Of a DNA stretch of 64,000 nt, positions 7,291 through 62,890 are shown piece by piece. A program made the position numbers and the translations under genes. The notes beneath the pieces are model-generated. The model saw only the letters and a program-made list of their open reading frames with translations, ran no database searches and was not told the DNA's origin. The DNA is taken from assembly GCA_963965975.1 (NCBI GenBank), contig OZ014411.1, forward strand, positions 13,780,501-13,844,500. Reading direction: 5' to 3'. Every line of letters starts with the position of its first letter. Within the stretch, counting starts at the first letter, position 1. This stretch comes from Xestospongia bergquistia (taxonomy: Eukaryota > Porifera > Demospongiae > Haplosclerida > Petrosiidae).

Positions 7291-7822
7291 TAACTATAGC
7301 CATAATAAAGGAATCACTCTGATTAGCTAGTATACATATCCACCATTTGAAGGTCAAGAAACTATAACTATAACTACAAGTTTTGGTCTATCAAAAGTAA
7401 CTGTAATTAACTAAAAATTTTACAATACTTCAATAACTAACTATAACTAACTAAATTGTTTTAATGTAAAAAAACTGAAGCAACTAAAACAACTGATAGA
7501 AATTGACAAATTAGCACTGGTAGTGATACTTGTCAACGATGTCATTGCATGTGTTATATTATGTATTCAAAAAAGGGTTGGTCCAGGTTGGATCAGCCAA
7601 GACTACAACCACAAATTATCCAATTGTAATTAGATCAAAGAGATCACTGATTAGCTAGTAGTAAAATAGAAGTTCTATATAACACTCTATCATGACATGA
7701 TGTCACGCATTTCCTAGGCTTAAGTAAGATATATGAGCATCAACAGCTTTATTTTCTTGAGCTTGCACTAAAATACTGTTGTTATTGTTCAAGTGTCTAC
7801 ACCTTAACTTGGTCTTCAAACA

Positions 7823-8325
7823 ATGAAATTATACATTGTAAGTTGTACATAGTGCTAATATATTTTAAGATGTATCTGGTTTATAATAATATTATATTAT
7901 ATAATATATTTCTTTCTCAATAGATCTACTGTCTTTTTATGACTCAACTCTCCATACTTCTTTCTCTATGTGATGGTCTTGTTCTATATGTTAAGTCTAA
8001 TGAACAGCAGAAATGTCCAAATAGTTCTATATGCCACACTCTATCTTTTTACTCTCAAAATGCTGGACTCTTTTTTGTATCTAACACTACCTTTGTCTTC
8101 ATGAAAGGTGAGCATAAACTTGAAAACAATATAGTTGTTACTGGAGTTAGTCAAATTGTATTTATGAGCATGTTTGCTTACAACCAGAAAAACAATGACA
8201 AGTCAACTATCAGTTGCAGTACAGTCACAGCTGGTCTACAATTTATTAACTCTTCTTATGCTAGAATTGATGGTCTAGTAATTAATGTCAGTTGTAGTTC
8301 TAGAGCTGCACTGATAAAAGAAATT
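7823..8325 (+). CDS. 5' part of beta-helix/multi-pass membrane protein gene (split)
   Basis: Exon 1 (7823-7837, MKLYI) splices with GTAAGT at 7838 to exon 2 from 7924, giving a hydrophobic signal region and then the N-terminal domain of the large sponge beta-helix membrane family: KCPNSSICHTLSFYSQN, FFVSNTTFVFMKGEH, ISCSTVTAGLQF and IDGLVINVSC. The frame meets a stop at 8329, exactly where transposon-like sequence begins. The continuation at 15816 reads CGISFYNVSS, as expected of the same gene, so this and 15816-19460 are two halves of one gene about 1.36 kb of residues apart only in the mature protein sense. Either the element sits in the coding exon and breaks the gene, or it sits in an intron whose donor lies upstream (GTCAGT and GTAATT, both in phase, occur just before 8300). 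Confidence 0.7.
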
Positions 8326-8664
8326 TGTTAAGGTAACAAAATATATGTGTTATATTGATGCATTCGATATAACAATACAAAATTTGTTAATATAACAAAA
8401 AACAATTTTGTTGTTATAACAGAGACTTGTTCTGTTACATTAAAAAACTAAATGTGTTAGTGTAACAGAATATTGTTGTTATAACATAACCCTGTTCTGT
8501 TGCCTTGAAAAGCAAAAATTCGTCTATCTAACAAATAATATTGTCATTATGACATAGACCTGTCCCGTTGTAATGAAAAGCAAAATCTGTTATAGTAATA
8601 AAAACTATTGCTGCTATAACAGATCATGTTCTATTGTAATGAAAACAAGTCTGTTAATATAACA
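8326..8664. repeat. Left-end array of TGTTA-N3-TAACA palindromes
   Basis: Exact 13-bp palindromes lie at 8326-8338 (N3=AGG), 8385-8397 (ATA), 8455-8467 (GTG) and 8652-8664 (ATA). The short form TGTTATAACA lies at 8412-8421 and 8477-8486. A wider TGTTATAT..ATATAACA pair spans 8348-8374. Degenerate copies fill the gaps at about 60-75 bp spacing. These are probable transposase binding sites. Confidence 0.85.
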
Positions 8665-8804
8665 ACTAATTTCTTTAACTCAACAACAATAATTATGAAA
8701 CAAAATAGAAAAAATGAAAAATAGACAAAAAAAATGACTGAAGAAAGAAAACACAATAATTTGTATGCAAATATTTAGAAGGTATGATTAAACAAAAATG
8801 GAGT

Positions 8805-8862
8805 TTGAATCTGACATTGAATGTTATTTGTTAGTCCAAATAACATTCAATGCCAGATTCAA
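8805..8862. repeat. 26-bp inverted repeat over the SAM-gene stop codon
   Basis: The arms 8805-8830 and 8837-8862 are complementary with a single mismatch. The 6-base loop holds the stop codon of the minus-strand SAM gene, so the last ~9 codons pair with the first bases of the 3' UTR. In RNA this makes a long hairpin at the end of translation. Confidence 0.9.
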
Positions 8863-11181
8863 CAGACAGGTAAACAGCAGACTTTTTAAAACTTTTATCA
8901 TCAAAATTGGCAACTTTTCTTTGTATAAAGAACAAAACATCCTTGACTGTCACATTATACGAAATGTTAAAGATGTAGTGAGTTGATATCAAGTGATACA
9001 GAGCACTAGTAAAGTTTGTAGATTCCATAACTACGTCTTGTTCAACAACAATAAAATATTGAGGAGGAATATCCTCATCACCATCTACAAACCTCAAAAT
9101 ATGTGGGTGGTTGTTTGTTTTGTCAACAACTTCTGTCAGTGGGGTACCACGCTGTATAACATAACAACAGAAATACATGGCATTACATTAGTGTTAAATT
9201 GCTGTAATTAATGAATCTTGATATAATTGCTAATATCAATTCTATGTAGAAACCACATATATTAGGTATGAATTATCACACAAGCACAAAATACCATTTA
9301 GATGGTGTTAATGAGGTTAGTCATTACTCTTTAGCATGTACTAAAGTGTGTGCACTTCTTACAGAAAGTCACTTACAGGAGCTTGCATAAGAATACAAGG
9401 TATTACACAATAATCCACAAATATCTCTTTTTTCTTCCTAAGTTTTGTAGCCATGAAGTACGTTAGGGACCGAAGTGCAAGCAAAATTTTTTCATCTATA
9501 TTGATATGTTATACCTATAATAAAAGTTCTGACATACCTCCATCAACAGAATCAGAAAGATATTGACGTAGCTCCTTTGGTAAAGATTTACTAGCTGTAG
9601 CATATTTGATAATGGCACATTCCCACTTTGGCCACTCGTAGCAAAATGCTTCATATGATGAAGTTACGTCCATAATTAGGTCCAACTCAAATGCAACCTA
9701 TGTTCATGATGTAATCACACTACAGACCATACATTATGTTTTATTACTCACATGAACAGGTTTAGAAAGATGAGGATATTCTGATATTATATCCTTTACG
9801 GGGATGGTATCATTCAAAATCCACTGTCGTCTGGTTGGAAAAGTACGGCGAATCAAAGATGTTAAGTCGGACTTGGGATGAATTACAAGTTCTCGTTGCA
9901 ACAAAACTTTGTTTCTTTCTTGTGATACTTCATCTTCCCCCTCCCCAAAAATTGAAGCATAGGCATGTTTTTCGTTATTATCAGTTTTGGGTTTCTTTGG
10001 AATGGGTGGGACTGATGGCTGGCCACGATTTGTGTTTTGACATATGGTGTAAATAAACTGGGTCCACGAGTCCTATTATAGGTAGATAAATAATAGAGAA
10101 AGAAGAAGTACTATACATATAAAATAATATGAATATACATATATTTGTGACTTACATGTTCCTTTAAAAATTTATGGTTGTTAACAAGGGAAGTGGCAAC
10201 AAGTTTACAATGGCACATTGATGGTCTTTGTACATAGGAGCAGAGCATTGTTGCCAGTACTCTTACCATATATTTTCTATCATCATCAGCCAATCGACCA
10301 TTAGAAAGGTTAGTTTCAGTGCTTTCGCGGAAAACAGGAATGGGAAAGGGATCAGGTATCTGTAAATAGATATTTTATATAACATAATGCATTCATCAAT
10401 ATATACTAACATCTTGTAGTGGTCGTTTTCGTCTTAGTCTTGACTTTTCATGTTGGGACTCATAGTTTAGTGTAGCAACAGATACTGTGCTAATTGAATT
10501 TGAAGGCGAGTTAGATATACTTTTCTGTTGAATAAAAGTTTATGAAATGTATAATTATCAATCTTTGAATATTGTATGTGTACCTTTCTCCCTGTCACTA
10601 AAGATGAATTACTTTCAGGAGACTAACATACAAATCAAAAAATTAGTCATTTTCACATGTGTAAACTGACAGTAATAAATTGCAATATTCACATCAACTT
10701 CCCTCATGCATATATGTAGTAAGGATTAATGATTATACCACATACATCAAATTACTACCTTATGACTGAAGCTTCCTGGAGATCCAATGGGGCTTAAGGG
10801 TATAATATCACATGGACTTGGTTCCTTCCACTTTTCCTCATCCTATAGTGGATATGTTCTCTAGTGTACTATAATAAAAGAGCTTACTTCAAGTTGTCTT
10901 TTAATTGCCATATACACTTTTATTCTTTTCCCATATGTAGGGACAAGGTCCTTCAAGCAATCTGGACCCGAGCAAGTAGTGAACGATTGCACTAGAGCCT
11001 CCCCATCCATCTCTTCACCTTGTCAAGAATTCGAAGTTATTACTTATATATACATATATAACAAATTCTCACCAATAAAAACCTGCTTTATATCGTCATC
11101 AAAACCTCTCTCTGTTAACCATTCACCGACCTTTTCAGTAGACCACGAAATCATGTTCAATGGTGCCGTATGCTCTACCAT
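8831..11181 (-). CDS. SAM-domain protein carried by the transposon (10 exons)
   Basis: Exons, in gene order: 11181-11073, 11018-10888, 10842-10759, 10622-10584, 10524-10411, 10359-10156, 10072-9752, 9697-9538, 9495-9377 and 9151-8831. They splice in frame with GT-AG introns to 533 residues, with no stop found. Residues ~12-80 form a SAM domain: WSTEKVGEWL, GFDDDIKQVF, EEMDGEALV and LKDLVPTYGKRIKVYMAIK. The middle is low-complexity and basic (RLRRKRPLQD). Next comes a conserved-looking region (DDDRKYMVRVLATMLCSY, FPTRRQWILND, FMATKLRKKKEIF), and the C-terminus reads HPHILRF, QYFIVVEQDV, FNISYNVTV. From memory, this C-terminal part resembles SAMD3-like proteins multiplied in fish and invertebrates. 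Its role in transposition is unknown; SAM domains usually polymerise or bind partners. Start: the ATG at 11181, in frame with the SAM domain. An upstream ATG at 11340 would run through the transposase exon. Confidence 0.8.
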
Positions 11182-11249
11182 CTCTGTTTCTTTTGCGCCA
11201 ATTATTTTAATCAACAAGGTGGATTCAGTTAGATCACGTGATTGGTAAC
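11182..11249. promoter_or_regulatory. 68-bp bidirectional promoter of the transposon
   Basis: This is the only sequence between the SAM gene ATG (11181, minus) and the transposase ATG (11250, plus). It holds CCAAT at 11198-11202 reading plus, ATTGG (inverted CCAAT) at 11241-11245, and an E-box CACGTG at 11235-11240. No TATA box is seen. Both transcripts should start here or inside the opposite 5' exon. The motif assignment is inference from short words. Confidence 0.6.
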
Positions 11250-14200
11250 ATGTCCTTTTGCTGCTGCTTCTGTGCATTCCGCTGTGGCAAGTGGAGTGTT
11301 TTTTTACGTCACACTTTTGAGTCTCATTCTTCTCTTCCAAATTTCTCCTTCAACTGTCCTGTGGATGGCTGCAATCAAACGTTTCAGACTTTCTCAGCAA
11401 TCTCCAGTCATCTCTCTAGAAAGCACCCCACTCATGATCTGGATCTTACTCACTCTCTTACAAGAACTGACCCTGCAGATATTGGTGTAGATAATTTAAG
11501 TTCTACTGAGCATTATGAATACAATCATTCTTTCATTCAACAAGAAAACAACATATGTAAAGATATGGATCACAAAATTATGGTGCAAAGATCAGCTGCA
11601 CTCTTCCTTTTGACACTAAAAGAACGATACTCTGTCACCCAAACTGCACTAGATTTGGCTATTCAGCAGATAAAAGGGATGGTAGGTTATTTGGTTGAGG
11701 ACATGAAAGCAAACCTGAAAGAAAGATTTGAAAATTGTCCTGGAGAAGTAGCTTTACCTGATATTACTGAATGTTTTAACTGTACTGATCCCTTTGCTAA
11801 TCTTGGTACTGAGTATCTACAGTATAAGTTTTATCAAGAACATTTTGGTCTTGTGGTACGTCATAGAATAATAATCGTTTGACCATTAACAATTAAAATC
11901 TTTTATGTCTTTTCATACTACAGGAACCCCAAACAAAGGTATTAGGTACAACCTTATCTTCAGCTGGGACAGGGACAGAAAGACGTTTTTGTGATAAACC
12001 AGATACATATCAGTATATACCACTTTTAGAAGGCCTTAAATCTTTATTACAAAACCCAGAAATATTGAATGAGGTAGACTTTATATTCGATTCCCTTACT
12101 CGCTCCATGCATGTTGATTCTGTAGGTTGTGATAGCTCATGGACGTTCTGACGACATGATTGGTGATGTGTGTGATGGTGATCTATTCAGAAGTCATCCC
12201 TTATACCAGGAGCATGCAGATGCCCTTCAACTATTAGCATACTTTGATGAAATTGAGGTATGTAATCCCCTAGGTTCCCATTCAGGCATTCATAAACTAG
12301 GCAAGTGTGTTATTTGATTATCAGTTACTGATTGAACTGTTTAAAGGAATGTTTTATTACACTTTGGGTAACATTCGTCCTGAACTTCGTTCAACTCAAA
12401 GAAGTATTCAACTGATTTTATGTGTTTCCTGTCCTATTCTTCAAAAATATGGATTTGAACGAATTCTTCAACCTTTTATTGAAGATGTTAATACTTTGTC
12501 AAGAGTAAAATATTGATTAATGCTGTATTCCTTACTATTATTGCTTTTAGGATGGTATCTTAGTCACAACTGGAAGTGTGACACGAAGATTCCATGGTAC
12601 AGTTCTGTTCTTTTCAGCTGATACTGTAGGAGCACATCAGTTAGGTGGTTTCAAAGTTGGTGTGGGTCTTTCTCTAAGGAAGTGCAGAGACTGTATGGCA
12701 ACTGATATAGATATTCAGTTGAAGGTGAGTACATGTTGTTTGATTATGTTGGTATAATGTTTTAAATTTTGATTTTTTTAAGTTTAAAGAAGAAGATTTT
12801 CAACTTCGTTCTTCTACTGCATACGATTACCACTGCTCACTATTAAGTGGTCCTACAGCAAAAAATGACTCGGTCACATATGGGATCAACTACCCAAGCC
12901 CACTCAATAAAATTGACCACTTTCATGTTGTAAACTCACAATTGCCACAAGATGTGATGCATGTTTTGTTAGAAGGAGTCCTCCCAGTGGAAACAAAATT
13001 GATGTTGAGGAATTTCATGTCTCAAAGATTTTTTACATTAGACTTTCTCAATAATAGATGTAAGCACTTTACATAAGGTAGAGCAGAGTCAAGAAACAGA
13101 CCACCAAAGGACTTCAATGCAATTCACTTCTCTGACTCCTCTAACAAGCTACCATTATCAGGTATTGTATAAATGTGTAAGTATAATTCCATAATTAGTT
13201 GTATGTTGAGTACATGCACAATTGATTTGCATTTGTTTATCTCTACTAGCGAGTCAAATGTGGAACTTTGCTATTTTTTTACCCTTTTTAATTGGTGACC
13301 TAGTTCCAGAAGATGACCCCTTGTGGGAATGTTTTCTACTGCTCCTGGAAATCTTGAGAATATGTACATCTAGAGTAACGTCTTCAGCCTCTGCTAATTA
13401 TTTGAAAGTTCTAATTGATCAACACCATTCTGACTTCAAAATATGTTACCCAGAAGTATCTCTCACACCAAAATTCCACTATATGATCCACTTTCCTCGA
13501 TTACTTACACAGTAGGTAACTCTATATACCAGAATTAGGAGCCCATAACCTCCACAATGGAGGATAAGAACACTTTTGTGAATGACCATATTGGCTGTAT
13601 TCACAATTGTATTAGTCTTAATCACACAAGCACTTCAAATTATAATTGTAATTATATTATTTTTTTGGCATGCAGAGTAGGACCATTGGTTTCTAGCTGG
13701 TGTATGCGAATGGAAGCAAAGCATTCATACTTTAAAAGAGCTGCACAAATTGGTAATTGTTTTAAAAATGTACCATATTCAGTTGCAAGAAGACATCAAA
13801 AGCTTCTGTGTGGGTACCTGCAGGGAAAGTTCTTTTCATATGAAGACTTAGAATGTGGACCCTGTAAGTATATAAATATTATTTATTACACATCACAACA
13901 GTTCTGTCTTTAGTCTGTTGCATGTATTGGGGTAGGAATGAAGTTTAATTTGGGGAGGGGGGGGTGACTTTATATTTAGTTGCATTATATTATTAAACAT
14001 CAAAAATGAAATCCGTCTGTCGTTAAAAGAAACAAACTCTTTACCTATTTCTAATAAGTTTATGTTATTAGTACGGTCCTTATGTGTATGTAACAGCATG
14101 ACATGGTTTAGTCATTCTTGGGTCATAGTACTTCGTAGGTAAATTTTTTAGTTGGAATAAGGTTGAAAAAGTATGTTTTGCTATAGCAGAAGTCATTGGT

Positions 14201-15205
14201 ACAGTTAGATACAGTCTAATTAGGTTATAAACATCAAACACATGCATTGATTATGCATTGACGCATTAATACTTTTGTTATAGCAATTAATTTTACAGAA
14301 GGTAACATGACCACACAATAATGTGGTGATTGATTGTTAATGTACATAAATTAACACAATAACCACTTTAGTCAAGAGGTTATTGTGTACATAGTCTTGA
14401 GTGCAAATCAGGGGGGCTTAGCCCCCCCTGATTTGAAGTTGGGGGGATGCCCCCCCTTCCTACCCCTATGGTTGGTTGCATGTACATTTTAATATGTGTA
14501 GTGCACTCTGAGCCATGTAACATATAAAGTTATTTGTTTGATAACAAACCTTAACAGCCCACTTCAATTTCCTTATAACTAAACAATTTCAATGTAGCAT
14601 TCTTTATGTTGTTTATACAGGTAAAACTAAGAGTTCAGTTCGTTTAGCTGATGATCCCTTATGTCAAAATATTCTCTCTTTGTTGGAAAATCAAGATTCA
14701 GATTTATTTATTTCTAGGTAAGTTTACATGTACTTTTTGTTATTGCATTCAGCTACATAATGTGACGATACTCAACTAGTCTCAATTATTCAACTAGTGT
14801 TAAAAGTCACTCGTACTTTGTTTTCAATTAATAGTGATTGCAATTTAAATTAAATAGAAGTAATTCTCATGCAATTCCTCATCATTTAGGCCAAATTGGA
14901 TTGGTATTTATGGAACAAAATTTTTCCGTGATGAGTTTATTCACTGTGGATGGCAGGATGATGATTTACCTGAATTTGCAAAAATTAGAGATATACTTGT
15001 AGTAAAATGTTGTCCTTTTTTTGAAGTTGAAAAGTATAGAACAGTAGGTATTAACAACCATTTACAAGCTTATCAAATATCTCATTTACATTCTTATTTT
15101 CTTGTAATGCTGTCTTCACTTTGTAATAAATACACGTTTTGTTCTCATACCTATATTGGTGATGGACAACTGTACATTGCTGTTCGAAGTAATGTTAATT
15201 CATAA
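11250..15205 (+). CDS. Zinc-finger DDE-type transposase (10 exons, one nonsense codon)
   Basis: Exons 11250-11855, 11924-12073, 12126-12300, 12347-12504, 12551-12724, 12783-13161, 13250-13511, 13676-13863, 14621-14717 and 14890-15205 join in frame to 834 codons. An N-terminal zinc-finger region has FCAFRCGKW, FLRHTFESH and a C2H2 unit CPVDGC...HLSRKH. The core has VCNPLGSHSGIHKLG, FYYTLGNIRPELRS, DTVGAHQLGGFK, LRKCRDCMA, QDVMHVLLEGVLP, PKFHYMIHFPRLL and WCMRMEAKHSYFK. These blocks are typical of a large metazoan transposase family that I associate with CACTA/tnp2-like DDE enzymes. Codon 519 is TAA (13074-13076) where context suggests tyrosine (KHFT-stop-GRAESR), so this copy is probably inactive. 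Intron 3 (12301-12346, 46 nt) begins GC. Intron 8 is long (757 nt) and holds a GC hairpin. The start is the first ATG in the frame; the enzyme presumably binds the terminal palindromes. Confidence 0.78.
14405..14434. repeat. G-run/C-run hairpin in transposase intron 8
   Basis: AAATCAGGGGGGCT pairs with AGCCCCCCCTGATTT across a 1-2-base centre. It is followed at once by a second GGGGGG...CCCCCCC pair (to 14456). It is strikingly GC-rich in AT-rich DNA, so it is probably a nested MITE-like insertion that explains the intron's length. Confidence 0.7.
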
Positions 15206-15611
15206 CTATTTCATGTTTTTGTAATAATTTTTCTAATAATAATTTTTGTTTCATGATAATTTTATATAACATTTATTTATATATATAATATTTATTATAT
15301 TGCATTTGTATTCTTTATTTTAAAAAATATTAATTTCTCTTTGTGATCAATTATTTTTATATATGCCTTCCAGTTCATACCTTTGAGAGACGTGTACTAA
15401 ACAACCATCATTTTCAATGAAAATTAATGTTCATCAATGCAAGTCATTGCTGATATTGGTGTGTTCATTGACATAACTCTTTCAAGTTTAGACAGTGTTC
15501 TGTAAAAGTAAAACATGCAAATTGACACTTATAGCCTGAAACATTATTTTTTATGTTAACTTGAAGCAATGCATTTTGTTATAGCATATAAAAGTCAACA
15601 TAACAAATTAT

Positions 15612-15800
15612 TGTTATTATAACAGCTTGTAAAATTAACAAACTATGTTAATATAACATGAAGTTACTATTACATTACTTCAACTTAACATTTTGTGTTA
15701 ACTTAACAATAATTCTTCTGTTATAACATCTTATGGTTACTGTAACACATTAGTGTCATTATAATAGTTTGCTACTTTAACAATTTATGTTAATATAAGA
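15612..15800. repeat. Right-end array of TGTTA-N3-TAACA palindromes
   Basis: Exact copies lie at 15612-15624 (N3=TTA), 15646-15658 (ATA) and 15696-15708 (ACT). The short form TGTTATAACA is at 15719-15728. One-mismatch copies are at 15735-15747 (GGTTA-CTG-TAACA) and 15788-15800 (TGTTA-ATA-TAAGA). The array mirrors the left end. Confidence 0.85.
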
Positions 15801-15815
15801 AATTATTTTTTTCAG

Positions 15816-18800
15816 TGTGGTATTTCATTTTACAATGTCTCATCAGTTAACATATACCGATCTACAATACACAATCTATACAACATGGGAATATTTATTG
15901 CCAATTCAGTCAATCTTACAATATCAGAATGTTCTTTTACTGCTGCTAATGGTCTTGATGTTCATAATGAGAGCAATCAATTGTTGTACAGTGTTTCTAT
16001 TATATCTAACAGTTTAGAGGAGGTACATTATAATATCAGTCACTCTGTCTTTGTTGGTAATCTACCTTCATTAGGTGGAGGTTTACATATTTATACTACT
16101 AACACTATATATAGTGAAGTGATTATTAAAGGATGTAATTTCTCACATATAGTTGGTTGTCTTGATAGTGCAGCTAATATTACTGTTGTTAACAATAGTG
16201 ACTATGCTGATATCATCGTACTTGATTCTGTTTTTTTTCAAAATTACCTCAATTGTTCAATTCATAAAAAAGAAGTTCTTGGTGGTGGATTAAAAATAAA
16301 ACTTGCTCAGATTGTTAATACTAACAACACTAAAACATGGCATTATAATAAAATTATCATACAAAATTCATTTTTTTCAAATAACTATGCCAATTATGGA
16401 GCTGGTGCTGGTATTCTAATTGAAGATAATATAAAGACTTGTAAAGTTATTGTCTCAAATTCAACTTTTCAACAGAACATAGCAAGAAGTAGATGTGGTG
16501 GTTTGATAATTTCTCCATCAGATGATATTCCAGAAAATGAACAAAGTCATTTTATAAATATAGTGGGAAGTAATTTCTTTGGTAATCAAGCTGGAATAGA
16601 TGCCACTGGATTACTAATATGGCCAAGGTTGAATAGTTCCAGTCAGGTTCATATATTTATCAATGATTGTAATTTTGCCTCAAACAATATTAGAGATATA
16701 AAACTGAGTGGAATAGGTCAATCAGCATTGTTGTTAAGGTTTTTCAGCTTTAGAGCTTCTACTAATTCATTTACAGTTACTAACTGCTTCTTTGTTAATA
16801 ATAAAGGAGGGAGTTTATATCTGAGTACAATTGAACAAGGATTGGTTGGGAAATTAAATGTGTCAATCAACAATTGCTACTTTGGTCATAATACTGGAGA
16901 TGTATATAGTACTATAACGATCCTTTTACATCCAATATGTGGATCAGTGGAAATATCTTATTGCCTGTTTGAAAATATCTCTGCTTTAAAAGATACCATT
17001 GCTGTTGCTTTAAGTTTAATCTATTTAAATGAAAATTCTTATTGTTCTAATTTACGCCTTTTGAATATAACCGTGAGAAATTTCAAATCAGGAAGAAATG
17101 CTATAGTTTTATCATGTTCATCTAAAAGCCTTCAAGTTAACATCAAAAATATTCAAATATATGACAACAATATGACTGCTATTGGATGTTATCGCTGTGG
17201 ACTACATTTCAGTGGATACAGCATTATAGCTAACAATACTACACCATATGCTGGAGGAGGTCTAGTAGTCAATAATAGTGGATATGCTGTTACAGAGAAA
17301 TATGGTTCAGTAATTTTTATTAATAACACTGCTAGTAAAGGAGGAGCTTTATACTCAGATACTAACATTCCATATATCAAGTCATTATTATTTGTGTATT
17401 GTACCTTTTCTGATTTTAGAGCTCGTTTTCAAAATAATACTTCTCATATTACAGGAGATAATTTGTATGGAGGATTATTTTATAATTGTCTGTTGCCTAT
17501 CACTGGGGCTCTAATAACTCATGAGCACTTTAAAGATGCAATAAATTGCAATATAACTGCACACATTAATCAAAACTATACTAGTGTCTCCTCAGATCCT
17601 TTTGCTGTTTGTTTATGTCATCAAAATAATTCTATTAATTATTACACAAATGTCACCAATATTACTGTTTATCCAGGTCAATTATTCAACATATCATTGA
17701 TTACAGTAGGATACTGTGGAGGTTCTAGTCCAAGTACATTATATTTATCATCATCATCTAATTTACAACTTATTGGTAACACTGATAATGACAAGACAAG
17801 TGTTCATTGTAAAGACTTTTTTTATAAAGCAATTCAGTTGTTACCACATGTTTCACAAGGTACTGTCACATTCAGTGTGCCTTCAAGACCTATTCCATTT
17901 TCTAAATCTTTGTCTTTGATGGTTTCATTTTTAAATTGTCCTCCTGGTACAAAACTGGGGTCATCACATGAGTGTGTTTGTAATGATATCATAACAGCTC
18001 TCACATCTGATATACAATGTAATGTATCATGGTGGCCATATCCTCTACGTAAACATTCTGGAAATAATAATTGGTTAGGTTACAAAGAAGATTATAATTG
18101 TACAATTGCATACAAGAATTGTCCATTTGATTATTGTCAATCTTCTGAGATCTTCTTCAATTTAAACAATTATACAGATCTTCAATGTAATCACAATAGA
18201 GCAGGTCTTCTTTGTGGTCAATGTCAGTCAGGACTCAGTCTTAAACTTGGTTCTAATGTATGTTCTAAATGTACTAATATTTATCTCCTCCTACTGATTG
18301 TGTTCATGTTCTCAGGAATATTACTAGTAGTTTTACTAATAACACTGAACTTAACTGTGTCAGTAGGTACTATCAATGGATTGCTGTTTTATGCTAACAT
18401 TATAAAACTGAATGAAGCAGTCTTCTTTCCTAATGGAAATATCATTATAGTTAGTCAGTTCATATCATGGATCAATTTGGACTTTGGTATTGAGGTATGT
18501 TTGTTTGATGGATTAGATGGATACTGGAAAACATGGCTACAGTTTGTCTTTCCATTTTATGTGTGGACTCTTGTAGCTGGTATTATTATCATATCTCGAT
18601 GGTCTACAAAGTTGTCCAATATGTTTGGTCGTAACATTGTCCCTGTTCTGGCAACACTTGTACTAATGTCATTTACTAAATTGTTAAGAACTACAACAAA
18701 TGCTTTGATGACATCAAAACTACATTGTGGTAGTCATGAATGGACAGTGTGGAGTGTAGATGGTAATATTAATTATGGAACTACCAAACATTCTATATTG

Positions 18801-44935: not shown

Positions 44936-47444
44936 TTAATCTGAATCAGAACTTGTACTTGAACTACTACTACTACTGCTAGTGGAAGAATGATGTTTTA
45001 GTTTTGGCTTCAGTTTATGTTTTTTAGTTTTCAGACCAAATTCAAGTGGACCTGCATCCATTTTAACCTAGAGAGAGAGAGAGAGAGAATATAACCACTA
45101 AGGTAATACATATTATAACATAAATTTTACAAATTGCCCTAAGATTGTATGATAATGATTCTATTGCAATAAACTAGAACAAAGAGGTGTCAACTAGTTA
45201 TGTTCAATGAATTTTATTAGTAGTACTACTAATAAAATTCACTTGTAGCCTAATAGTATGTTAGCAGTCAATTTTTGCTGGTAAATTTTAACTGTTGTGT
45301 TTGATACTGTAGCTGTAACTTCATACAATAGAATTAAACAAAGGCAAACATACTATACCATATATACACATGATTTAAATTATCTTACGACAACCAGGCA
45401 TTTGAAGTAAATGTATCATTACTATAAGGCAGCACAATTATATAAAATTATTATTTTAGACTTACTTTGTGTTTCTTGACTTTCATTTTATGTTCTTTAT
45501 GATGTTTATGAACTTTATGTTCTTTGTGATGCTTCTTGTCTTTCTTATCTTTAGAATCACCTTTATGTTGACTCTAAGAGAAGATAAAGTAAATAGTATA
45601 AAGTAAGGCAAGGAGACACGCACAAACTGCACATGCAGAGACAGATTTAAAGGGTTCTTACATAAAGGGTAATTACTTACTCATGAAAGTATAGTCAATT
45701 AATTGTCTTATCTTAGTCACTCCTATTCTTATAAGACAAAAGACAGATATTTTTGGCTTGCCGTGCTTGTCAGGTGGTTATGAGATTGTTTTAATGCCAG
45801 GAAGTCCTACAATTGTTTTGAACCACATACTAATTATATATAAGTGTTATTCCCATTGACTATTGAAAGCAATGAATGAAATTAAACTAAATCTTTAGAT
45901 TGTCAATGCATTTAGCAGTCAATGAATTTATTAACCACAAGCACTGTGATGATAGGTGTCACTGATCATGCTTGAAGCTTCTTGCTATATATATACATGT
46001 ATATGTATTTAATTTCTCTGCCTACAGTATAATTCCAGTATTCTATAATAGTAGTCTTCTACAGATTCTATCACTAATTATGTAATATTTGTAGTTCTAG
46101 TCAATGTTTCATTATAAAGTCGGTATCTTCTAAAACAATGTTTTTTTTCAATTATAATCTTGTTGATCATGTGGTATATATCTATGGATCTAGTTTCATC
46201 ATTTGTTGTATCCAACATTCAAAGCCAACAAATGACAATAATGCACATAAAGTAATTTCCTATGTACAATTTGCACCTAATGAATTTAATTGCTGCTACT
46301 GAAGGGCTTCAAAATGGGTATGACTGATTAAGGCTTGAAAGCTATTATAACCAAAGTATCTTCAGGCATCACAATAGCTTTCATAGTAATGACAGTATCC
46401 AATCTATACACAATTTTACAATCATAACGTTGTGAATTTTTCTTTATTATATGGGTGTGGTTAAAGTTTCTAACAACTCCCAATAATCTAATGAACCAAG
46501 TTAAATATTAGTTATAAAATTAAAGCTTACTGGCTGAGCAGGATAATGAGTTGTTGGAACAGAACCTCCATAGCCAGAAGGATAAGGTTGTCCTGGAGGA
46601 CCAGGTCCACCTGTTACCTATAAGATATTGATGACAAAGAACTTTACTGACTTAAGTGACATACATCTTAATCCCAAATATGTACATGATTAAAAAACTC
46701 TATATATCAGTGCTATATAAGGTGACTACTAATACTTTATATATCAGTGCTATACAAGGTAACTACTAATACTTTATATATCAGTATTATATAGGTGACT
46801 ACTAATACTTTATATATCAGTGCTATATAAGGTGACTACTAATACTATATATATCAGTGCTATATAAGGTGACTACTAGTACTTTATATATCAGTGCTAT
46901 ACAAAGTAACTACTAATACTTTATATGTATCAGTATTACATAGGTGACTACTAATACTTTATATATCAGTGCTATATAGGTGACTACTGATACTCAGTAT
47001 TATATAAGGTGACTACTACTATGCATATTCAGTCTATTGCTAATATATAAATTTATCATTACTGTTTACATTGCCTATAAACACTTTCCCAGTACATATT
47101 AATACACTATTAAGTACTATCAAGTGATATATGACATCATTCATACATACATGTTATCAAAAAATTCGTTAATTATAATTAATAAATAAGAACTTCTAAA
47201 GGAGACCACATCTCAGACTTTATCTTACTTGAGACTGTGCATATGGTGGTGGAGCTTGTGATGGAGGATACCCTGTAGTTGGTGGATAACTAGGATTGGT
47301 GGCAGGATATCCTGTAGTTGGTGGATAACCAGGGCTGGTGGCAGGATAGCCAGTGGGTGGTGGGTAACCAGGATTAGGAGGGGGATAACCAGGGTTGGCA
47401 GGAGGGTAGGCAGGGTTATATCCTGATGGTGGTGGATATGCCAT
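44936..47444 (-). CDS. Pro/Tyr-rich protein with His/Lys-rich tail (4 exons)
   Basis: Exons 47444-47229, 46617-46531, 45573-45466 and 45067-44936 are all in phase 0 with GT-AG introns and give 180 residues. Exon 1 is built of GYPP(T/P/A)-type repeats (AYPPANPGYPPPNPGYPPP). Exon 2 is Gly/Pro-rich (GPGPPGQPYPSGYGG). Exon 3 is a run of His and Lys (KKHHKEHKVHKHHKEH). Exon 4 holds GPLEFGLKTKKHK, then polyserine and SSDSD. The layout resembles low-complexity proline-rich proteins with a charged His/Lys tail in plants and animals; such N-termini may phase-separate or bind WW/SH3 partners, but function is unknown. The ATG begins the repeat region. Intron 1 holds a ~40-bp tandem repeat. The last two exons are duplicated at 35659-36347. 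Confidence 0.75.
46695..47030. repeat. ~40-bp tandem repeat, about 8 copies
   Basis: Units contain TATATATCAGTGCTATATAA, GGTGACTACTAATACTT. Copies vary by small deletions (ATATAGG for ATATAAGG) and by GTATTA for GTGCTA. The array lies in intron 1 of the Pro/His-rich gene. Confidence 0.93.
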
Positions 47445-55864: not shown

Positions 55865-56140
55865 GTTATTACTGTACTGTCAGTGGCTGCTATTACTGTA
55901 CTGACAGTGGCTGCTATTACTGTACTGATAGTAGCTGCTATTACTGTACTGTCAGTGGCTGCTATTACTGTACTGACAGTGGCTGCTATTACTGGACTGA
56001 CAGTGGCTGTTATTACTGTACTGATAGTAGCTGCTATTACTGTACTGACAGTGGCTGCTATTACTGGACTGACTGGCTGCTGTTACTGGACTGACTGGCT
56101 GCTGTTACTAGACTGATAGTAGCTGCTATTATTTGACGGA
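55865..56140. repeat. 24-bp minisatellite, about 11 copies
   Basis: The unit GGCTGCTATTACTGTACTGA plus CAGT repeats head to tail, with variants GTCAGT, GATAGT and ACTGGACTGACT. The unit length is divisible by 3, so all copies stay open in two frames (GCYYCTDS-type and AAITVLTV-type). No start context or splice site supports a protein. It lies 575 bp after the LC3 stop. Confidence 0.93.
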
Positions 56141-58073
56141 CAGTGGCATATTACAAGTTTAATTTGTGAAAATTAGAAATTTAGAATACAGTTGTTTGAA
56201 GAGTTATTTCAATATTTTGTACTAGTATATTAATTATTTCATGTATTACTTGATAAAATGGTAAATTAAAGAATAGATGAAACAACGTTCAACCGGATGT
56301 CGACATGCACTTTACACAGGAAATACTTCGAGTTATTGTTACCATGGCTACGTTTGCTAAACATGGCTGCCCTATATTATAATATGATTGAACAAATTAG
56401 TGATTTCCACTAATTAGCTGTGATATGTACATCAAAAACAAGCAACTAGTTCATTAAATATAATATATCAATAGGTTTAAATAAATAAAATAAAGAAAAG
56501 CCACCATAATCACAAATTGTAGTTACTCTTCAACAAAATACTGGTTCTTCATAACTACTTTCACTCTTTTCAAAATATCTATTCCAAAAAGATACTGACA
56601 ATAGACACTACAACTCATATAATACCATATACATGACTAAAATGTTTTGAAATGCTTTATAAATGTCTTAAAAGGTTTCAACAACAACAAGTATACACAA
56701 GAGCTATACTCAAATGTAATAACAAGTAATTAAGTGCAGCAAGTTAATTATTACATAGAGATTATTATATGAAAATTGGTATAATGTTTTGTATGAAAAG
56801 ATATACATACACAAGTATCAATTGAGAACTATTTGCATATAAAATATTAGTCATCAAATATTACTTTTTAAGCATAAATTTAAATATACAACACATTGAA
56901 GACTTTATATATGACCATTGCAAACATAAAAAATACATATATGACATTTTAGAAACTACAATTAATGCTATATTAGACAAAATACATGTAAATCAATGTT
57001 TTACTCACCAGGATGTCACAGCATATAGTTTATATTACATAGTAGCTGGCATGTTTCACAACAATGTCATACAGTATCTATGTATGATTAAATGTGACAT
57101 GAACTTGTCAACACCAAACACACAATAACCTGCATCACAACAACTAGATGTATACAGACTTTGTGAACATGATTATGGCAGGTGCAACTGGGAAAAAGGA
57201 ATGATAATTACGTATTATAGTTATATAAATTATACATAATAGTAAGGTATAGGAAATGCATACTTTGATGATAAATTAATACAGTTAGGTTCTAATGTTT
57301 AGGATATAGGGTCTAGGGATAGTATTAAGTTCTCATTGAAGAATGCACTTCCTGTGCCATACGAATAGCCATTCACTAAATTAGATCAAAATAATACAAT
57401 TATATATATTGATGTTTATGTGAGCTATATACATTTCTAATACACTACCAGTATAGAGGTGCTTTAATAACAACATGTCGATTTCATTTGAGTGACCAAG
57501 TACTGAGTCTACTCTTCATAATATCTATATAATAGTCATACTTTCTACCCTTTTTGACAATGTAATTAATATATAATGATCATCAAAGTGGTTAGAATCC
57601 TAGCCATGCTTTAATATGTAAATCAATATATTGAGGTTTAATGATCATTATCAAGTACAAAATTATCATATATGATAATAAACTGTTATATTTCTATTTA
57701 ATGGCTTTGTGACTTCTGTTCTTGTCTTCAGCCTATAAAAAGCAAGAATGATGTGCAGGCAAAATAGGAGAGCTTATACTTTTTTTCCATTCTCCATTCA
57801 TGCACCTCAGGAAATACTTGTGAGGGTGACCAACCCTGATAGATTGGCCATGTTTATAGAAATGTTGCTTTATAAAGTTCAGTAGCATAAGGAATTAAGT
57901 TATGTTTGAGTGATGTTTACCAGATGGAAATATCAGTAAAATTTTATTTTAATTTCATCCATTGTTGATAGCATGGATTCATATACTGGCAATAATGTAA
58001 CATACAGTGCATATTGATGTGTGTATGTTTTGTTAGTGTGTTGAGTTTGCATCTGTTAAACTATGACATGCAG
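56141..58073. other. No gene seen
   Basis: AT-rich. The last ~300 bases precede an integrase exon and may be the relic's intron or 5' part, but no further coding similarity is visible. Confidence 0.45.
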
Positions 58074-59382
58074 GTTGTATCAGATAGCAAGACAAAACTT
58101 AAGATCCTTGAGGTTTGTCACAATGATTCAGTTGGGGGCTGCCATTTCGGATGGGACATAACTGCTGCTAAGGTATCAGCTCGATACTATTGGAAGACAA
58201 TTAATCAAGATGTTGCTGACTGGGTATGTTTTCTATATGTGCACAATGCCTATATAGATTGTCAGTGTGGATTACAAGCAATTCAATGCAACTAATATTG
58301 ACTTTTATTAATGTTTTTGCAGGTAAAGTGTTGTGATGTATGCCAAGGTACGAAGAGAAAATTTGATCGCCCAGCACCATTGTTGTACCCAATCCCTATG
58401 TCTGTCACATGGAACAAAATAGGAATTGACCTGATCACATTGCCCCTGAGCAGGAATGGCAACCAGTATTGCATTACCCTCACTGATTATTTCTCAAAGT
58501 GGGTTGAAGCAGAACCAATTCCAACAAAGGAAGCTAAGCATGTAGCAGCATTCCTTTACAAAATGATCCTTCGACATGGTTGTCCTCTAGAGATAGTGTC
58601 TGACCAGGGTAGAGAATTTTGCAATGACTTTGTAGATTTGCTTGAAGAACTTACTGGATTCAAGCACAAAATGACAACACAAACACCAAACTTAAGGTTA
58701 GAGACAAAGTGCTTGTGCAATCAATGAAGAATGAAGGCCGGAAGGGTGGAAAACTTGAAGTCAGGTTTAAAGGTGGTCCATAAACCATTGCAGAAGATCT
58801 GGGTAAGGGTAGCTTTCATATTAAGAATTTGGATGATAAGTTACTCCAGTCAGAGCTGTTAACTGTCACAGACTAAAGCTGTGGCATGATCTTGATAAAT
58901 GTTCACTGAAGAAGAACCTTGAACCTCTATCTCAGCCTAAACAAGATCAGCCACAAAAGAAAAAGAGGAAGGTGAATGAGGATGATACAAAAGATGATGC
59001 AAACAAAGATGGGTGGCTTAGCATCTCAGGAATTCAGCTAACTCAAGAAGATAAGAAGGTGTTATTGGAAGGGGGCTGGCTCAATGATAAACATATCCAT
59101 AGTGCACAAATATTGAGGAAACAAGATACAGACCTTCTACCAGTTGGATCACTTCAGAATCCTTTATTGGGGCAAAACTTGAGGTTTGAAGTTGTTACTC
59201 AGGAGTCTGTACAAATCCTCCATTCTGGAGGAAACCACTGGCTTACTATTAGCACAGTCGGCCTTCAAAATTCTACTGTGAAGGTATATGACAGCTTGGG
59301 TTCCAGATTACCATGCTCAACAGTACTGCAGATCACATCCCTTCTTCATTCCACTGAAGACAGCATTACTATTCTTTATGCC
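58074..59382 (+). pseudogene. Integrase + Ulp1-like protease gene relic (KRBA2-like)
   Basis: Exon 58074-58223 and a second from 58323 are joined by a 99-nt GT-AG intron that splits an HHCC zinc-binding module (CHNDSVGGCHFGWD / VKCCDVCQ). A DDE integrase core follows (KIGIDLITLP, EIVSDQGREF). After 58690 a deletion and frameshifts lead to DKVLVQSMKNEGRKGGKLE, then stops at about 58782 and 58874, the basic run QKKKRKV (NLS-like), and a Ulp1/C48-type segment (GGWLNDKHIHSAQIL, GGNHWLTIS with the catalytic-type His, VKVYDSLGS with Asp). The order integrase then Ulp1-like protease is that of KRBA2-like genes in fish and invertebrates, from memory. The frame ends where a Gypsy LTR begins at 59383, so the protease C-terminus, including its Cys region, is missing. 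Confidence 0.7.
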
Positions 59383-59615
59383 TGTGACTGATAAGATACG
59401 TCGAGCTAGCGGATCACTTATTCAAGAATGGAGCGGACCAATTACAAGACAGGAAAGGGAATTCCAAAGTGGTCCAGCGATCTCGTGATCCTGGCAAGGA
59501 CTATATAAAGAACTAATACTCATAGAGGAGAGTAGTTGTTGTTGCTGTTTTTGTAACTGTATTATTACTATCATTACTATTAAAAGTTTGAAACTATTTA
59601 AGTCACTCTGTAACA
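59383..59615 (+). repeat. 5' LTR (approx. 233 bp)
   Basis: Begins TGTGACTG and ends CTGTAACA, giving short imperfect TG..CA inverted ends (TGTgAC / GTaACA). A TATA box TATATAAAG is at 59502-59510. The edges are inferred from these ends and the primer site; the 3' LTR is outside the window. Confidence 0.7.
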
Positions 59616-59620
59616 TTATT

Positions 59621-59640
59621 TGGTGGCAGTGGTGGGATCC
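59621..59640 (+). promoter_or_regulatory. Primer-binding site candidate
   Basis: TGGTGGCAGTGGTGGGATCC follows the LTR end after 5 bases and starts with TGG, as expected for pairing with a tRNA 3' CCA end. The tRNA is not identified. Confidence 0.55.
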
Positions 59641-59826
59641 AGCGAGAAACAGTAGACATTTGAGGACCTTACCAACTAAGCAGGAAGCAAAATGTCACGA
59701 TTACCAGATTTGCGGAAGTACCATAAAGAGCCCTGGAAGAAGGTAAATAAAAGACGTAACCAAAAGCCCACTAGGCTAACTGATAGTTTTGAAAAAACAA
59801 GTATACAGAGTAAAGACTAAACTGAT

Positions 59827-60800
59827 ATGGAAAAACTCGCAGCAGTGATGGCGCAGCTAGCCAGTAGTGAACAACAGTTCCAACAACAATTGGTCAATAG
59901 TCAACAACAATTCCAGCAATTACAACAAAAATGCAACACCAGAATCAAGTACAACAAAAGGAGTTACAACAACAATTAATGGATCAACAGGAACAGCAAC
60001 AACGACAACAACAGGAGTTACAACAGCAAATAATGGATCAGCAACAAAAACAACAGAAAGAGTTTCAGAAAATCTTGAAAGAGGTGGGCAAGCAATCTAC
60101 GGCTAGGAGTGAAAGAGTAAATGTTGCCGAGTATAAGGAAGGAGAAGATATTGCTTCTTTCCTGGAAGCCTTTGTAGGGATGATGACACTAAATGAAGTA
60201 GAAGAAGAAGACTGGTTGAAGTATTTAGTCCCGAGTCTGACCAGCAAAGCAAGGGAAGTAAGCCAGTACATGGAATTTGATAAATGCACATACTGAAACT
60301 TTTAAGAGAGAATCATGAAGCACTTTGAAGTCACTAGAGAGGCACAAAGGCGGAAATTCAGAGAGAAGAAGTGGACGACTGAGTGAATTCCCGAGGCGTA
60401 TGTGCGGGAAGCAGAACAGGTGATCCAAAGATGGCTAACTGAAGATATGTCTCCAGATGACATACGTCAACAGCTTGTGATTGAACAACTGCTGAGTGGA
60501 ATGCCGAAGGAAATGCGGACCTGGGTGGGAGAGTGGCAGCCAGTGAAAACTGACCAGATGGTGGAGTTAATACTTCACTTACCACCCACATGAATGAAAA
60601 GCGAGTGAAAGACGACCGTATCGAAAACCAGGTGTAAAAACCGAGTATAAGACACCTCCTCCGAGGAATGGACTGCTACACCCAAAGCTGCAGTCAAAAG
60701 GGAGATCACTCCAAAATGGGAAGGTACTTGCTACAAGTGTGGCAAGAAGGGACACTATGCCCAAAAATGTAAACAAGAGGCTTTCGCTTGTGAGGAACAA
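59827..60800 (+). pseudogene. gag: Gln-rich coiled coil, SCAN-like capsid, zinc knuckle
   Basis: The reading begins with MEKLAAVMAQ, shifts frame near 59930 at an A-run, and continues through a Gln-rich helix (60000-60070). A capsid segment follows: SFLEAFVGMM, EEDWLKYLVP, a stop TGA at 60295, another at 60381, then QQLVIEQLLSGMPKEMRTWV, which is SCAN-domain-like. SCAN is thought to derive from Gmr1-like capsids. A CCHC knuckle CYKCGKKGHYAQKC is at 60729-60770. In the element, gag packages the RNA. Stops and shifts make it nonfunctional. Confidence 0.75.
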
Positions 60801-60827
60801 GGCGAGGATCACATTCGGCTGGGGCGA

Positions 60828-61573
60828 GTGGATGGTGGATCGAAAGTCAAGATGATAGTCGATACTGGGTGTTCTAGGACTACCATTCGGAAGGATTTGG
60901 TGAGTCCAAGTAAAGTACAAGTGAACACCAGGGATTCACAGATCGCAAATGGTGAGTGGATCAACTTCAAGCTGGCCGTAGCGGAACGCCTAGCAGTACC
61001 TGTTCTCCTGGGCAGAGACCTACTGATTGACTGGATGATTGCCCAACATATGTCTGATGAGGAACTCAGGGAGATACTTCAGAAAAGACAGGAGCAACAG
61101 TTTGTAGTGACTATGAGAGCACGGGCTCGAAGAGAGGGGGTCAAGGAGGAGCAGAGGCTTCAAGAGGAAGCACTAGCTCAAGGCCAACCAAGGACGATCA
61201 CAGAGGAGCAAAGGCCTAGGAGGGATGCAGACATGCAGGACGTTGAAGCTGTTGGGCACAGGGAGCAAGATGTGACTGTGACTCGAGACAAGCAGCTGAA
61301 TAACCAGGATCATCAGGAAGATCAGTCAGAAAGTCAGAGACGAGAACCGACGCTAGGAGAGGAGTTTGACTTCTCAGAGGACCTGTTTAGGAGGAGCAGG
61401 CTGGCCAGACAGGACCTGTCGAGAGGACAGAGGAGGAGGAGGAAGGCCAACGAATCACGAGTGATGTTTGATGAAAAGGACACGAGTATGCTGAGCAGGG
61501 CTCAGCAGGAAGATCCAGAAGTCCAGCGTTGGAGGAGCAAGGAGGACCCCTCTAGAGTCAAAGAAACCAGGGA
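60828..61573 (+). pseudogene. Aspartic protease and charged linker
   Basis: VKMIVDTGCSRTTI carries the catalytic DTG (60861-60869), and VLLGRDLL is the usual C-terminal flap partner. A long Arg/Glu/Gln-rich linker (about 61050-61560) leads to the integrase. This frame is open, but the polyprotein is broken before and after it. Confidence 0.8.
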
Positions 61574-62890
61574 GTGTTTCTTCGTGTATGGAGAGCCAGG
61601 AACGAAGGAACCGAGTATGACCAGATTGTATTACCAGAAGAATATAGGGCACAGGTGTTGAGGATGGCACATGCATTACCATTAGCAGGACACTTGGGAA
61701 AACAGAAGACAGCCCAACGTATCCTGAGACGATTTTATTGGCTTAGTGTTTTCAAAAATGTGGAGAAGTATTGCCGACAATGCCCGGAGTGTCAGCTGGT
61801 TGGGAGAAGGGTGACAGGCAGAGCACCATTAGTACCACTTCCAATAGTGGGAACCGTTCGAGAAAGTGGCCATGGACATAGTGGGGCCATTGACCAAAAC
61901 AGCGCGAGGACACAGATACATATTGGTCGTTTGTGATTATGCCACCAAGTACCCTGAAGTGATGCCACTGAAAAGGTTCACAGAGCCAGCTATAGCTGAA
62001 CAATTGATGGAACTGTTCTCTAGGCACAGGGTACCAAAGGAGATACTCACCGATCAAAGGGACTAATTTTATGTCTCAGCTGCTGCAGGAGCTGTATAAA
62101 ATGCTGGGAGTAAAACCTGTCCAGACAACACCATATCACCCTCAAACGGACGGACTGGTGGAAAGATTCAACCAGACCCTCAAACAGATGCTTAGAAAGA
62201 TGATTGACGAAGAAGGACGGGACTGGGACAAGCTTGTTCCCTACATCCTATTTGCTTACAGAGAAGTGCCTCAATCATCCACGGGATTCAGTCCTTTCGA
62301 GATGGTTTATGGGAGAGATGTTAGAGGACCCCTGGAAATTTTAAAAGAAGGATGGATTGGAGGAAAACCAGGAGGAGACGACATAATTACATATGTTATC
62401 CGAATCCATGAACGCCTGGAAGCAGCAAAGGAGATCATATTGGAGAATCTGCGACAAGCATAACAGAAACAGAAGACATTGTATGATAAGAGGGCCAGAG
62501 AGACCCAGTTTGAGGCGGGAGATAAAGTCTTAGTATTGCTACCCACTCATACAGAGAAACTGTTAGCCAAATGGAAAGGACCCTACAACGTAATTCGGAG
62601 ACTAGGGAAGGTTAACTACGAACTGGAAATGACGGATGGAAGGAAAGGATGAAAGCTCTTTCACGTAAACATGCTGAAAAAGTGGAACGAACCTGAGGAG
62701 ATGTTTGTGAATCAGATATCTGACGGACAGGAGGAGGTTCCCTGCTACCAGAAAGAGCAACAGAATATACAGGATGCTATGTATGGGGAGCAATTAACAA
62801 AGAGGCAAAAAGTGAAGGTAGAACAACTAATCAAAAGGTTCCCCCAGGTAATACAAGCAAGAAATAGTGTCACAACTCAAGTGAGACACT
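61574..62890 (+). pseudogene. Integrase and GPY/F module, frameshifted
   Basis: HHCC zinc module (HALPLAGHLG, CRQCPECQ at 61665-61797) and DDE core: AMDIVGPL (61866), ILTDQ (62043), LVERFNQT (62155). Breaks: loss of one base near 61852 before the first Asp, gain of one base near 62057 after the second, and TAA at 62461-62463. Then DKVLVLLPTHTEKLLAKW, GPYNV and FHVNMLKKW form the GPY/F-type end, with a TGA at about 62650 and another at about 62890. Integrase inserts the cDNA; here it precedes RT. Confidence 0.85.

Follow-up and report, generated by a model that had tools for sequence, protein, structure and literature searches.

Does a gene for a SAM-type protein that lies head to head with a transposase gene in the sponge Xestospongia bergquistia belong to a transposon and, if so, to what kind of transposon? 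The two genes occur in a 64-kb stretch of the genome (C1:13780501-13844500, called here the window), the SAM gene at positions 8831..11181 on the minus strand and the transposase gene at 11250..15205 on the plus strand. A preliminary description had combined them in one element. We have followed up this locus in one 146-Mb assembly of 21 contigs, whose genes are AT-rich and intron-dense. The SAM gene proved to be a true gene of the element, and the element is very probably a two-gene DNA transposon that moves by cut-and-paste and belongs to the CACTA-like clade CMCT (CACTA/EnSpm-Mirage-Chapaev-Transib).

Limits, target sites and copies of the element

A BLASTN analysis was performed with window positions 7500-16700 as query against 15 stretches taken from the genome. 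It revealed three near-full copies (C8, C6 and C3:6.84 Mb) with 98.8-99.4% identity to the window, two degraded copies, and an internally deleted copy at C1:4.69 Mb (97-98% identity over the aligned parts), which retains the SAM gene and both ends and has lost nearly all of the transposase. Nine copies that are approximately 71-82% identical to the window are clustered within about one megabase at C2:13.6-14.7 Mb. Several of these have equal match values, and the cluster suggests duplication of old insertions. A search of IMG/VR viral contigs for relatives gave none.

The alignments of the near-full copies have their left limit at 8309 and their right limit at 15817-15825, except that the alignment of the C6 copy, whose left end is interrupted by a nested insertion, starts at 8451. 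Together with the deleted copy at C1:4.69M, they define the whole transposon as 8309..15817 (7,509 bp); the limits first proposed, 8326..15796, were thus 17 and 21 bp too far in. Read base by base across copies, the element starts with CACTGATAAAAG and finishes with TTTTTTCAGTG, and four further copies in the genome have the same ends as the window copy. The left terminal inverted repeat (8309..8323, plus strand) starts with CACTG and matches the right (15803..15817, minus strand), which finishes with CAGTG, at 12 of 15 bases. The copy alignment also delimits the target-site duplication (TSD), TG, on the left (8307..8308) and on the right (15818..15819). The TSDs of the other copies of this family are CA (C8 and C3) and TA (C1:4.69 and C6), and all five are 2 bp long. 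If we include the two copies of a second family (see below), CACTG..CAGTG termini are found in five plus two copies and a 2-bp TSD in all seven with both ends read, always the pyrimidine-purine (YR) dinucleotide TG, CA or TA.

When the element and one TG are removed from the window, the flanks join as a single open reading frame (ORF) of a host gene. We therefore rejected the idea that the element is a spliced intron of this gene, since the host ORF is continuous without it. The four near-full copies (window included) differ pairwise by 0.38-0.70% of the bases compared (8460-15817), and their movement is thus recent. The element is mobile, and both genes form one unit.

The host gene whose open frame is split (window 7900-8308 and 15820-17500) reads as a long protein with many units resembling 'GGGL' and 'NNS'. 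The insertion nested in the left end of the C6 copy (C6:2189378-2192106, loci L040/L010) is about 2.7 kb long. A 705-codon frame in it resembles parts of a retroelement (gag, protease and integrase), and positions 143-158 of the left end are found on either side of the insertion.

Pairing and co-divergence of the two genes

Loci were collected with two transposase queries supplemented by three fragment loci and with three SAM-type queries, and were clustered at 4 kb. Only the best candidates were scored, and locus and pair counts are lower bounds. There are at least 74 transposase loci and at least 69 SAM-type loci, and divergent pairs separated by less than 9 kb account for 34/74 and 34/69 of them, respectively. 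When the SAM loci were placed at random (1000 trials, with assumed lengths for C5, C9, C11 and C13), 0.24 transposase loci were paired on average and never more than 3. One transposase locus is accompanied within 9 kb by a same-strand SAM locus. Another (C1:4.367 Mb) is scored as convergent, but had been a divergent pair before SAM matches on both sides were merged in one cluster. SAM exon 7 as a DNA query identified 10 loci, eight of them at 86-100% identity, and seven of these eight have a transposase exon nearby in divergent order. Two SAM loci that were initially unpaired were inspected, and each has a transposase, diverged or decayed, on the side where the divergent plan would place it. 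SAM exons are present locally at the unpaired transposase locus L017.

The two proteins also diverge in parallel. Protein distances for both genes were compared at 14 loci, where 59 of the 91 locus pairs overlap sufficiently. The correlation is r = 0.84 (Spearman 0.64) and was reached by none of 5000 permutations. If each close group is represented by a single locus, r is 0.69 (24 pairs; 9/5000 permutations) and, with the C2 cluster and close relatives removed, 0.87 (15 pairs; 93/5000). The two genes are inherited and diverge as a single unit.

Nucleotide differences were measured at 15 loci. For the five between-family loci quoted here (L026, L027, L030, L031 and L032), the proportion of synonymous differences (pS) is 0.72-0.82, near saturation, and that of nonsynonymous differences (pN) is 0.30-0.42 for both genes, the latter derived from BLAST-aligned stretches only, which favours conserved parts. 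Because pN remains at this level while pS is near saturation, both proteins look constrained. The remaining ten loci (near-identical, degraded or in the C2 cluster) have nonsynonymous to synonymous rate ratios (dN/dS) of 0.23-0.72. The NG86 values for the transposase of near-identical copies were implausibly high, presumably due to misalignment at exon edges, and were not used.

Several observations weigh against the SAM gene being an integral part of the element. No divergent partner was detected for 40/74 transposase and 35/69 SAM loci. At the unpaired locus L019, similarity to SAM exon 3 is limited to 113 bp of DNA, and no SAM protein match was obtained. Nine related transposase loci at C1:18.19-18.78 Mb had no SAM partner detected in the genome-wide locus count; this cluster is possibly a SAM-less sub-lineage or a duplicated locus. 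In addition, removal of close pairs reduces the correlation to r = 0.53 (52 pairs). The SAM gene might then have been captured from the host and be carried along with no function in transposition, as the 35 SAM-type loci without a divergent transposase could indicate. This reading is contradicted by the single orientation at 34 loci, by the low pN compared with pS between families and by the co-divergence, and we consider it very improbable. We assign the SAM gene to the element since near-identical copies show the two genes moving together, the SAM gene is paired divergently with the transposase at 34/74 transposase loci, and the two co-diverge. This bears out the preliminary description, which had seen in it a second element gene and not a bystander. 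A transposase never accompanied by the SAM gene, or a single-copy SAM gene, had been named there as findings that would speak to the contrary; neither is the case in this genome.

Subterminal palindromes and a second family

Matching palindrome arrays had been taken to enclose the element. The arrays are real, but they are subterminal, the true termini being CACTG/CAGTG. The left array (8326..8664) contains eight and the right (15612..15800) seven TGTTA-N3-TAACA palindromes with no more than one mismatch. All seven exact TGTTANNNTAACA matches in the window are located inside the two element ends, as are 15 of the 24 with up to one mismatch. With up to two mismatches, 107 are observed in the whole window against 107.2 by chance, and, because these counts are equal, the signal must be considered local and a stricter match is needed. 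For the core GTTA-N3-TAAC (up to one mismatch, here and below), the two ends contain 8 and 10 copies compared with 0.5 and 0.6 expected, numbers reached in none of 500 simulations. The element interior (6.7 kb) contains none, and the flanks of 8.3 and 48.2 kb contain 7 and 34, respectively.

A second family, represented at C1:3.25 Mb and at C7:3.89 Mb, has the same divergent two-gene plan. The transposase of its C1 copy is at a distance of 0.68 from that of the window (about 32% identity over the compared length). The ends of this family are CACTGCAAAAAAAATTA...TTTTTTGCAGTG, and both copies have 2-bp TSDs (TG and TA). In the C1 copy, the palindrome core occurs five times in the first and three times in the last 400 bp (expected 0.6 and 0.4); these counts were matched by 0/500 and 2/500 simulated sequences, respectively. 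A further four are found in the 5.4-kb interior, and 0 and 6 in the 1.5- and 4.5-kb flanks. Since these features recur at approximately 32% transposase identity, CACTG ends, a short TSD, the palindrome core and the SAM partner are associated in two sequence-distant families.

Structure of the two genes

The structures first proposed, two divergent genes of 10 exons each with 533 and 834 codons, were correct except that an in-frame stop in the transposase gene had been missed. The SAM gene is composed, on the minus strand, of exons 1-5 (11181-11073, 11018-10888, 10842-10759, 10622-10584 and 10524-10411) and 6-10 (10359-10156, 10072-9752, 9697-9538, 9495-9377 and 9151-8831). Its nine introns are all GT-AG and its 533 codons are followed by a stop, with no inner stops. 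The SAM-like domain is assigned to exons 1-2 (10888..11181, minus strand) from similarity to Pfam SAM_2 and SAM_3, its reach over exon 2 being putative. SAM_2 matches residues 12-46 of the whole protein (E 0.0098), SAM_3 matches the stretch containing exon 1 (E 0.022, next to a chance-looking viral family at E 0.023) and SAM_1 matches a SAM homologue (E 0.0036). All three are below the Pfam cut-off, and the matches supporting the SAM label are weak but consistent. A PDB sequence search with the SAM protein gave a single match, L3MBTL3 (E 0.61). The SAM reading frame terminates within a 26-bp inverted repeat (8805-8862, 96%), whose 6-nt loop contains or adjoins the stop codon.

The transposase gene, on the plus strand, includes exons 1-5 (11250-11855, 11924-12073, 12126-12300, 12347-12504 and 12551-12724) and 6-10 (12783-13161, 13250-13511, 13676-13863, 14621-14717 and 14890-15205). 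It has 834 codons and a stop when read through the premature stop at 13074..13076, and nine introns, one of which is GC-AG. An alternative model for exons 3-4 was rejected because it loses the NPLGS..HKLG motif; the GC-AG intron was used instead. The window copy is broken in its transposase gene, since the stop at 13074-13076 interrupts the frame and all three near-identical copies have a sense codon there. An 18-nt intron that would skip the stop was rejected as too short and in view of the sense codon in other copies. Damage varies between copies and, under the same exon model, not all of them are damaged.

The N-terminus of the transposase includes a zinc-finger-like C2H2 region (11250..11440, plus strand), recognised from its sequence (C2H2_ASCIZ E 0.035, below the cut-off). 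Further downstream on the same strand are the putative first catalytic Asp (12246..12248, in YFDEIEV..NPLGS), the putative second (12620..12622, in SADTVGAH), the C(2)C motif CRDC (12683..12694), the H(3)H motif HYMIH (13477..13491) and the putative catalytic Glu (13713..13715, in MRMEAKH), all conserved in relatives. In an alignment of the core with these relatives, the conserved blocks are YYDE..NPLGS, ADN/ADT.AAH..GG(F/Y)K, CRxC, HYM(I/V)H and MR(Q/M)E(S/A)K. Part of transposase intron 8 (window 13929-14445) has an 84-92% match outside the element ends at C1:4.69M, and for this reason another repeat seems to have inserted in the intron.

Classification

CMCT elements are characterised in PMC12730594 by 5'-CA..TG-3' termini, a 2- to 5-bp TSD, and C(2)C and H(3-4)H motifs between the second D and the last E. 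The seven copies analysed here have CACTG..CAGTG termini with a 2-bp TSD, and CRDC, HYMIH and MRMEAKH occur in that order and are kept in relatives. Two relatives, L025 (625 amino acids, intronless) and L028 (627 amino acids), have contiguous core frames 31-36% identical to the window transposase. Transposase_21 (tnp2) is matched by L025 at E 0.0034 and by L028 at E 0.0075, and DUF4218 at E 0.087 and 5.9e-5, respectively, the order of the two domains being shared. In plant CACTA proteins, DUF4218 is located downstream of Transposase_21. Transposase_21 is also the domain linking the Schistosoma element SmTRC1 to CACTA (PMC1636069). We place the element in the CMCT clade because of its CA..TG ends, short TSD and C(2)C/H(3)H/E motifs; the sub-threshold Transposase_21/DUF4218 similarity in relatives may point the same way. 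The preliminary description knew of no named superfamily defined by the gene pair. Within the clade, we refer to the element simply as CACTA-like.

An 8-bp TSD would instead have pointed to a superfamily outside CMCT (Zisupton-like or hAT-like). AAGAAATT is present near both ends of the window copy and was considered as such a duplication. It was rejected because the copy alignment puts AAGAAATT inside the element: other copies share it, and the true duplications are 2 bp. As the CMCT motifs are also present, this assignment is highly improbable.

The element differs in detail from each of the described groups. It shares with CACTA/EnSpm (for example, maize En/Spm) the CA..TG ends with a CACT core, the motifs C(2)C and H(3)H and the possession of two proteins; the sub-threshold matches of relatives to Transposase_21 and DUF4218 may be a further common feature. 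CACTA/EnSpm ends, like those of the element, carry repeated internal motifs. In CACTA/EnSpm, however, the TSD is 3 bp and the core CACTA, compared with 2 bp (7/7 copies) and CACTG here, and the subterminal motif of the present element is a 13-bp palindrome. Moreover, maize Spm generates tnpA and tnpD by alternative splicing (PMC1636069), whereas the second gene here is a separate divergent unit with a SAM-like domain. The animal TRC elements (SmTRC1) are CACTA relatives with a 2-bp TSD and a second product for which a TNPA-like role was proposed, but their terminal inverted repeats begin with CCC, not CACTG, and the SmTRC1 products arise by alternative splicing (PMC1636069, a text which includes neither 'sterile' nor 'subterminal'). 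Plavaka, ESTA and Lanisha have CMCT motifs, short TSDs and, in some cases, accessory genes. The ends of Plavaka are, however, TGT..ACA or CATCA..TGATG, unlike those found here, and the accessory gene described is a TET/JBP dioxygenase, no SAM partner being included in the PMC12730594 passages. Harbinger/Nuwa elements also have two genes and a separate accessory protein, but their transposase is of the PHIS lineage, their TSD is 3 bp and the partner is Myb/SANT rather than SAM (PMC12730594). Finally, Zisupton (KDZ) has an 8-bp TSD, compared with 2 bp here.

Some results count against this assignment and against the properties attributed to the SAM protein. A Pfam scan of the window transposase matched no transposase family, Transposase_21 included, and PDB sequence searches with a transposase profile and with one relative gave no match that could point to the RNase-H-like DDE fold expected of the clade. 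The L025 and L028 matches are below the Pfam cut-offs, and a chance-looking Ig_CD22 match (E 0.087) equals the weaker of them. The SAM domain is weak in all searches and the AT-hook in one SAM homologue, a possible sign of DNA binding, is below the Pfam cut-off. Single-copy scans did not fix the termini of three further families: the best candidates at C1:22.23M and L027 agree at 11/15 bases (equalled or exceeded in 17/20 shuffles of the C1:22.23M stretch alone), and L026 gave no candidate. Taken as a whole, the best explanation, a CMCT two-gene element whose SAM partner may act like TNPA, is in our judgement a likely one.

Possible role of the SAM protein

From the ends and TSDs, the putative DDE (aspartate-aspartate-glutamate) transposase would cut at CACTG/CAGTG and insert at YR dinucleotides by a cut staggered by 2 bp. 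The subterminal palindromes would be bound by a dimeric element protein, either the SAM protein or the zinc-finger-like region of the transposase. If it is the SAM protein, this could bind and bridge the end arrays, with SAM-SAM self-association gathering both ends into a complex; in addition or alternatively, it could regulate the shared divergent promoter. Maize TNPA and TNPD interact and are both essential for transposition (as summarised in PMC1636069). We propose by analogy that the SAM protein may be a TNPA-like end-pairing or regulatory partner, and give this specific role a little less than an even chance.

Alternatively, the SAM protein may be dispensable for cutting and act towards the host, in escape from silencing or in control of chromatin or transcription, as has been suggested for the TET/JBP passengers of fungal transposons. 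Such passenger genes are known in CMCT elements (PMC12730594), a promoter role would be natural for a gene located head to head with the transposase, and the deleted C1:4.69M copy has kept the SAM gene and both ends. On the other hand, the same layout and co-divergence across highly diverged families suggest an integral role and not that of a swappable passenger, and Pfam scans of the window proteins and of a SAM stretch and homologue included no chromatin domain above the cut-off. We regard the host-facing role as conceivable but somewhat doubtful. The TNPA-like reading can be extended to a CMCT lineage with an obligatory SAM partner that recognises GTTA-N3-TAAC in either end and whose co-evolution with the transposase predates the separation of the families, in which case SAMD3-like animal genes would be element genes or domesticated. 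This extended version is rather unlikely.

Other features of the window

The region 58000-64000 has a higher G+C content (0.40-0.48) with a strong excess of G and A on the plus strand. Minisatellite arrays are present at 1-625 (58-bp unit), 46697-46994 (37-bp) and 55867-56147 (24-bp).

Significance

The transposon is of a known kind, CMCT; the new part is the SAM-type partner gene. Among the papers listed in a literature search, none describes, by its title or abstract opening, a CACTA-like element with a SAM gene; Repbase Reports and most subscription papers were outside this search, and the lineage may be catalogued there. The TNPA-like product proposed by DeMarco et al. 2006 (PMC1636069) for an animal CACTA relative was not conserved even between animal elements. 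In the present case, the transposase has retained a second gene, one with a recognisable domain, across families that in the distant comparison with known ends share only about 32% of transposase residues, beside a common palindrome core. The question of how CACTA-like ends pair can thereby be approached with two known proteins and a known DNA site.

The result also calls for caution in annotation: what looks like a SAM-type 'host' gene in this genome frequently belongs to a transposon (34/69 loci paired). Vertebrate SAMD3-like genes, which have an N-terminal SAM domain and a similar length, serve only as a lead to possible element genes in other animals.

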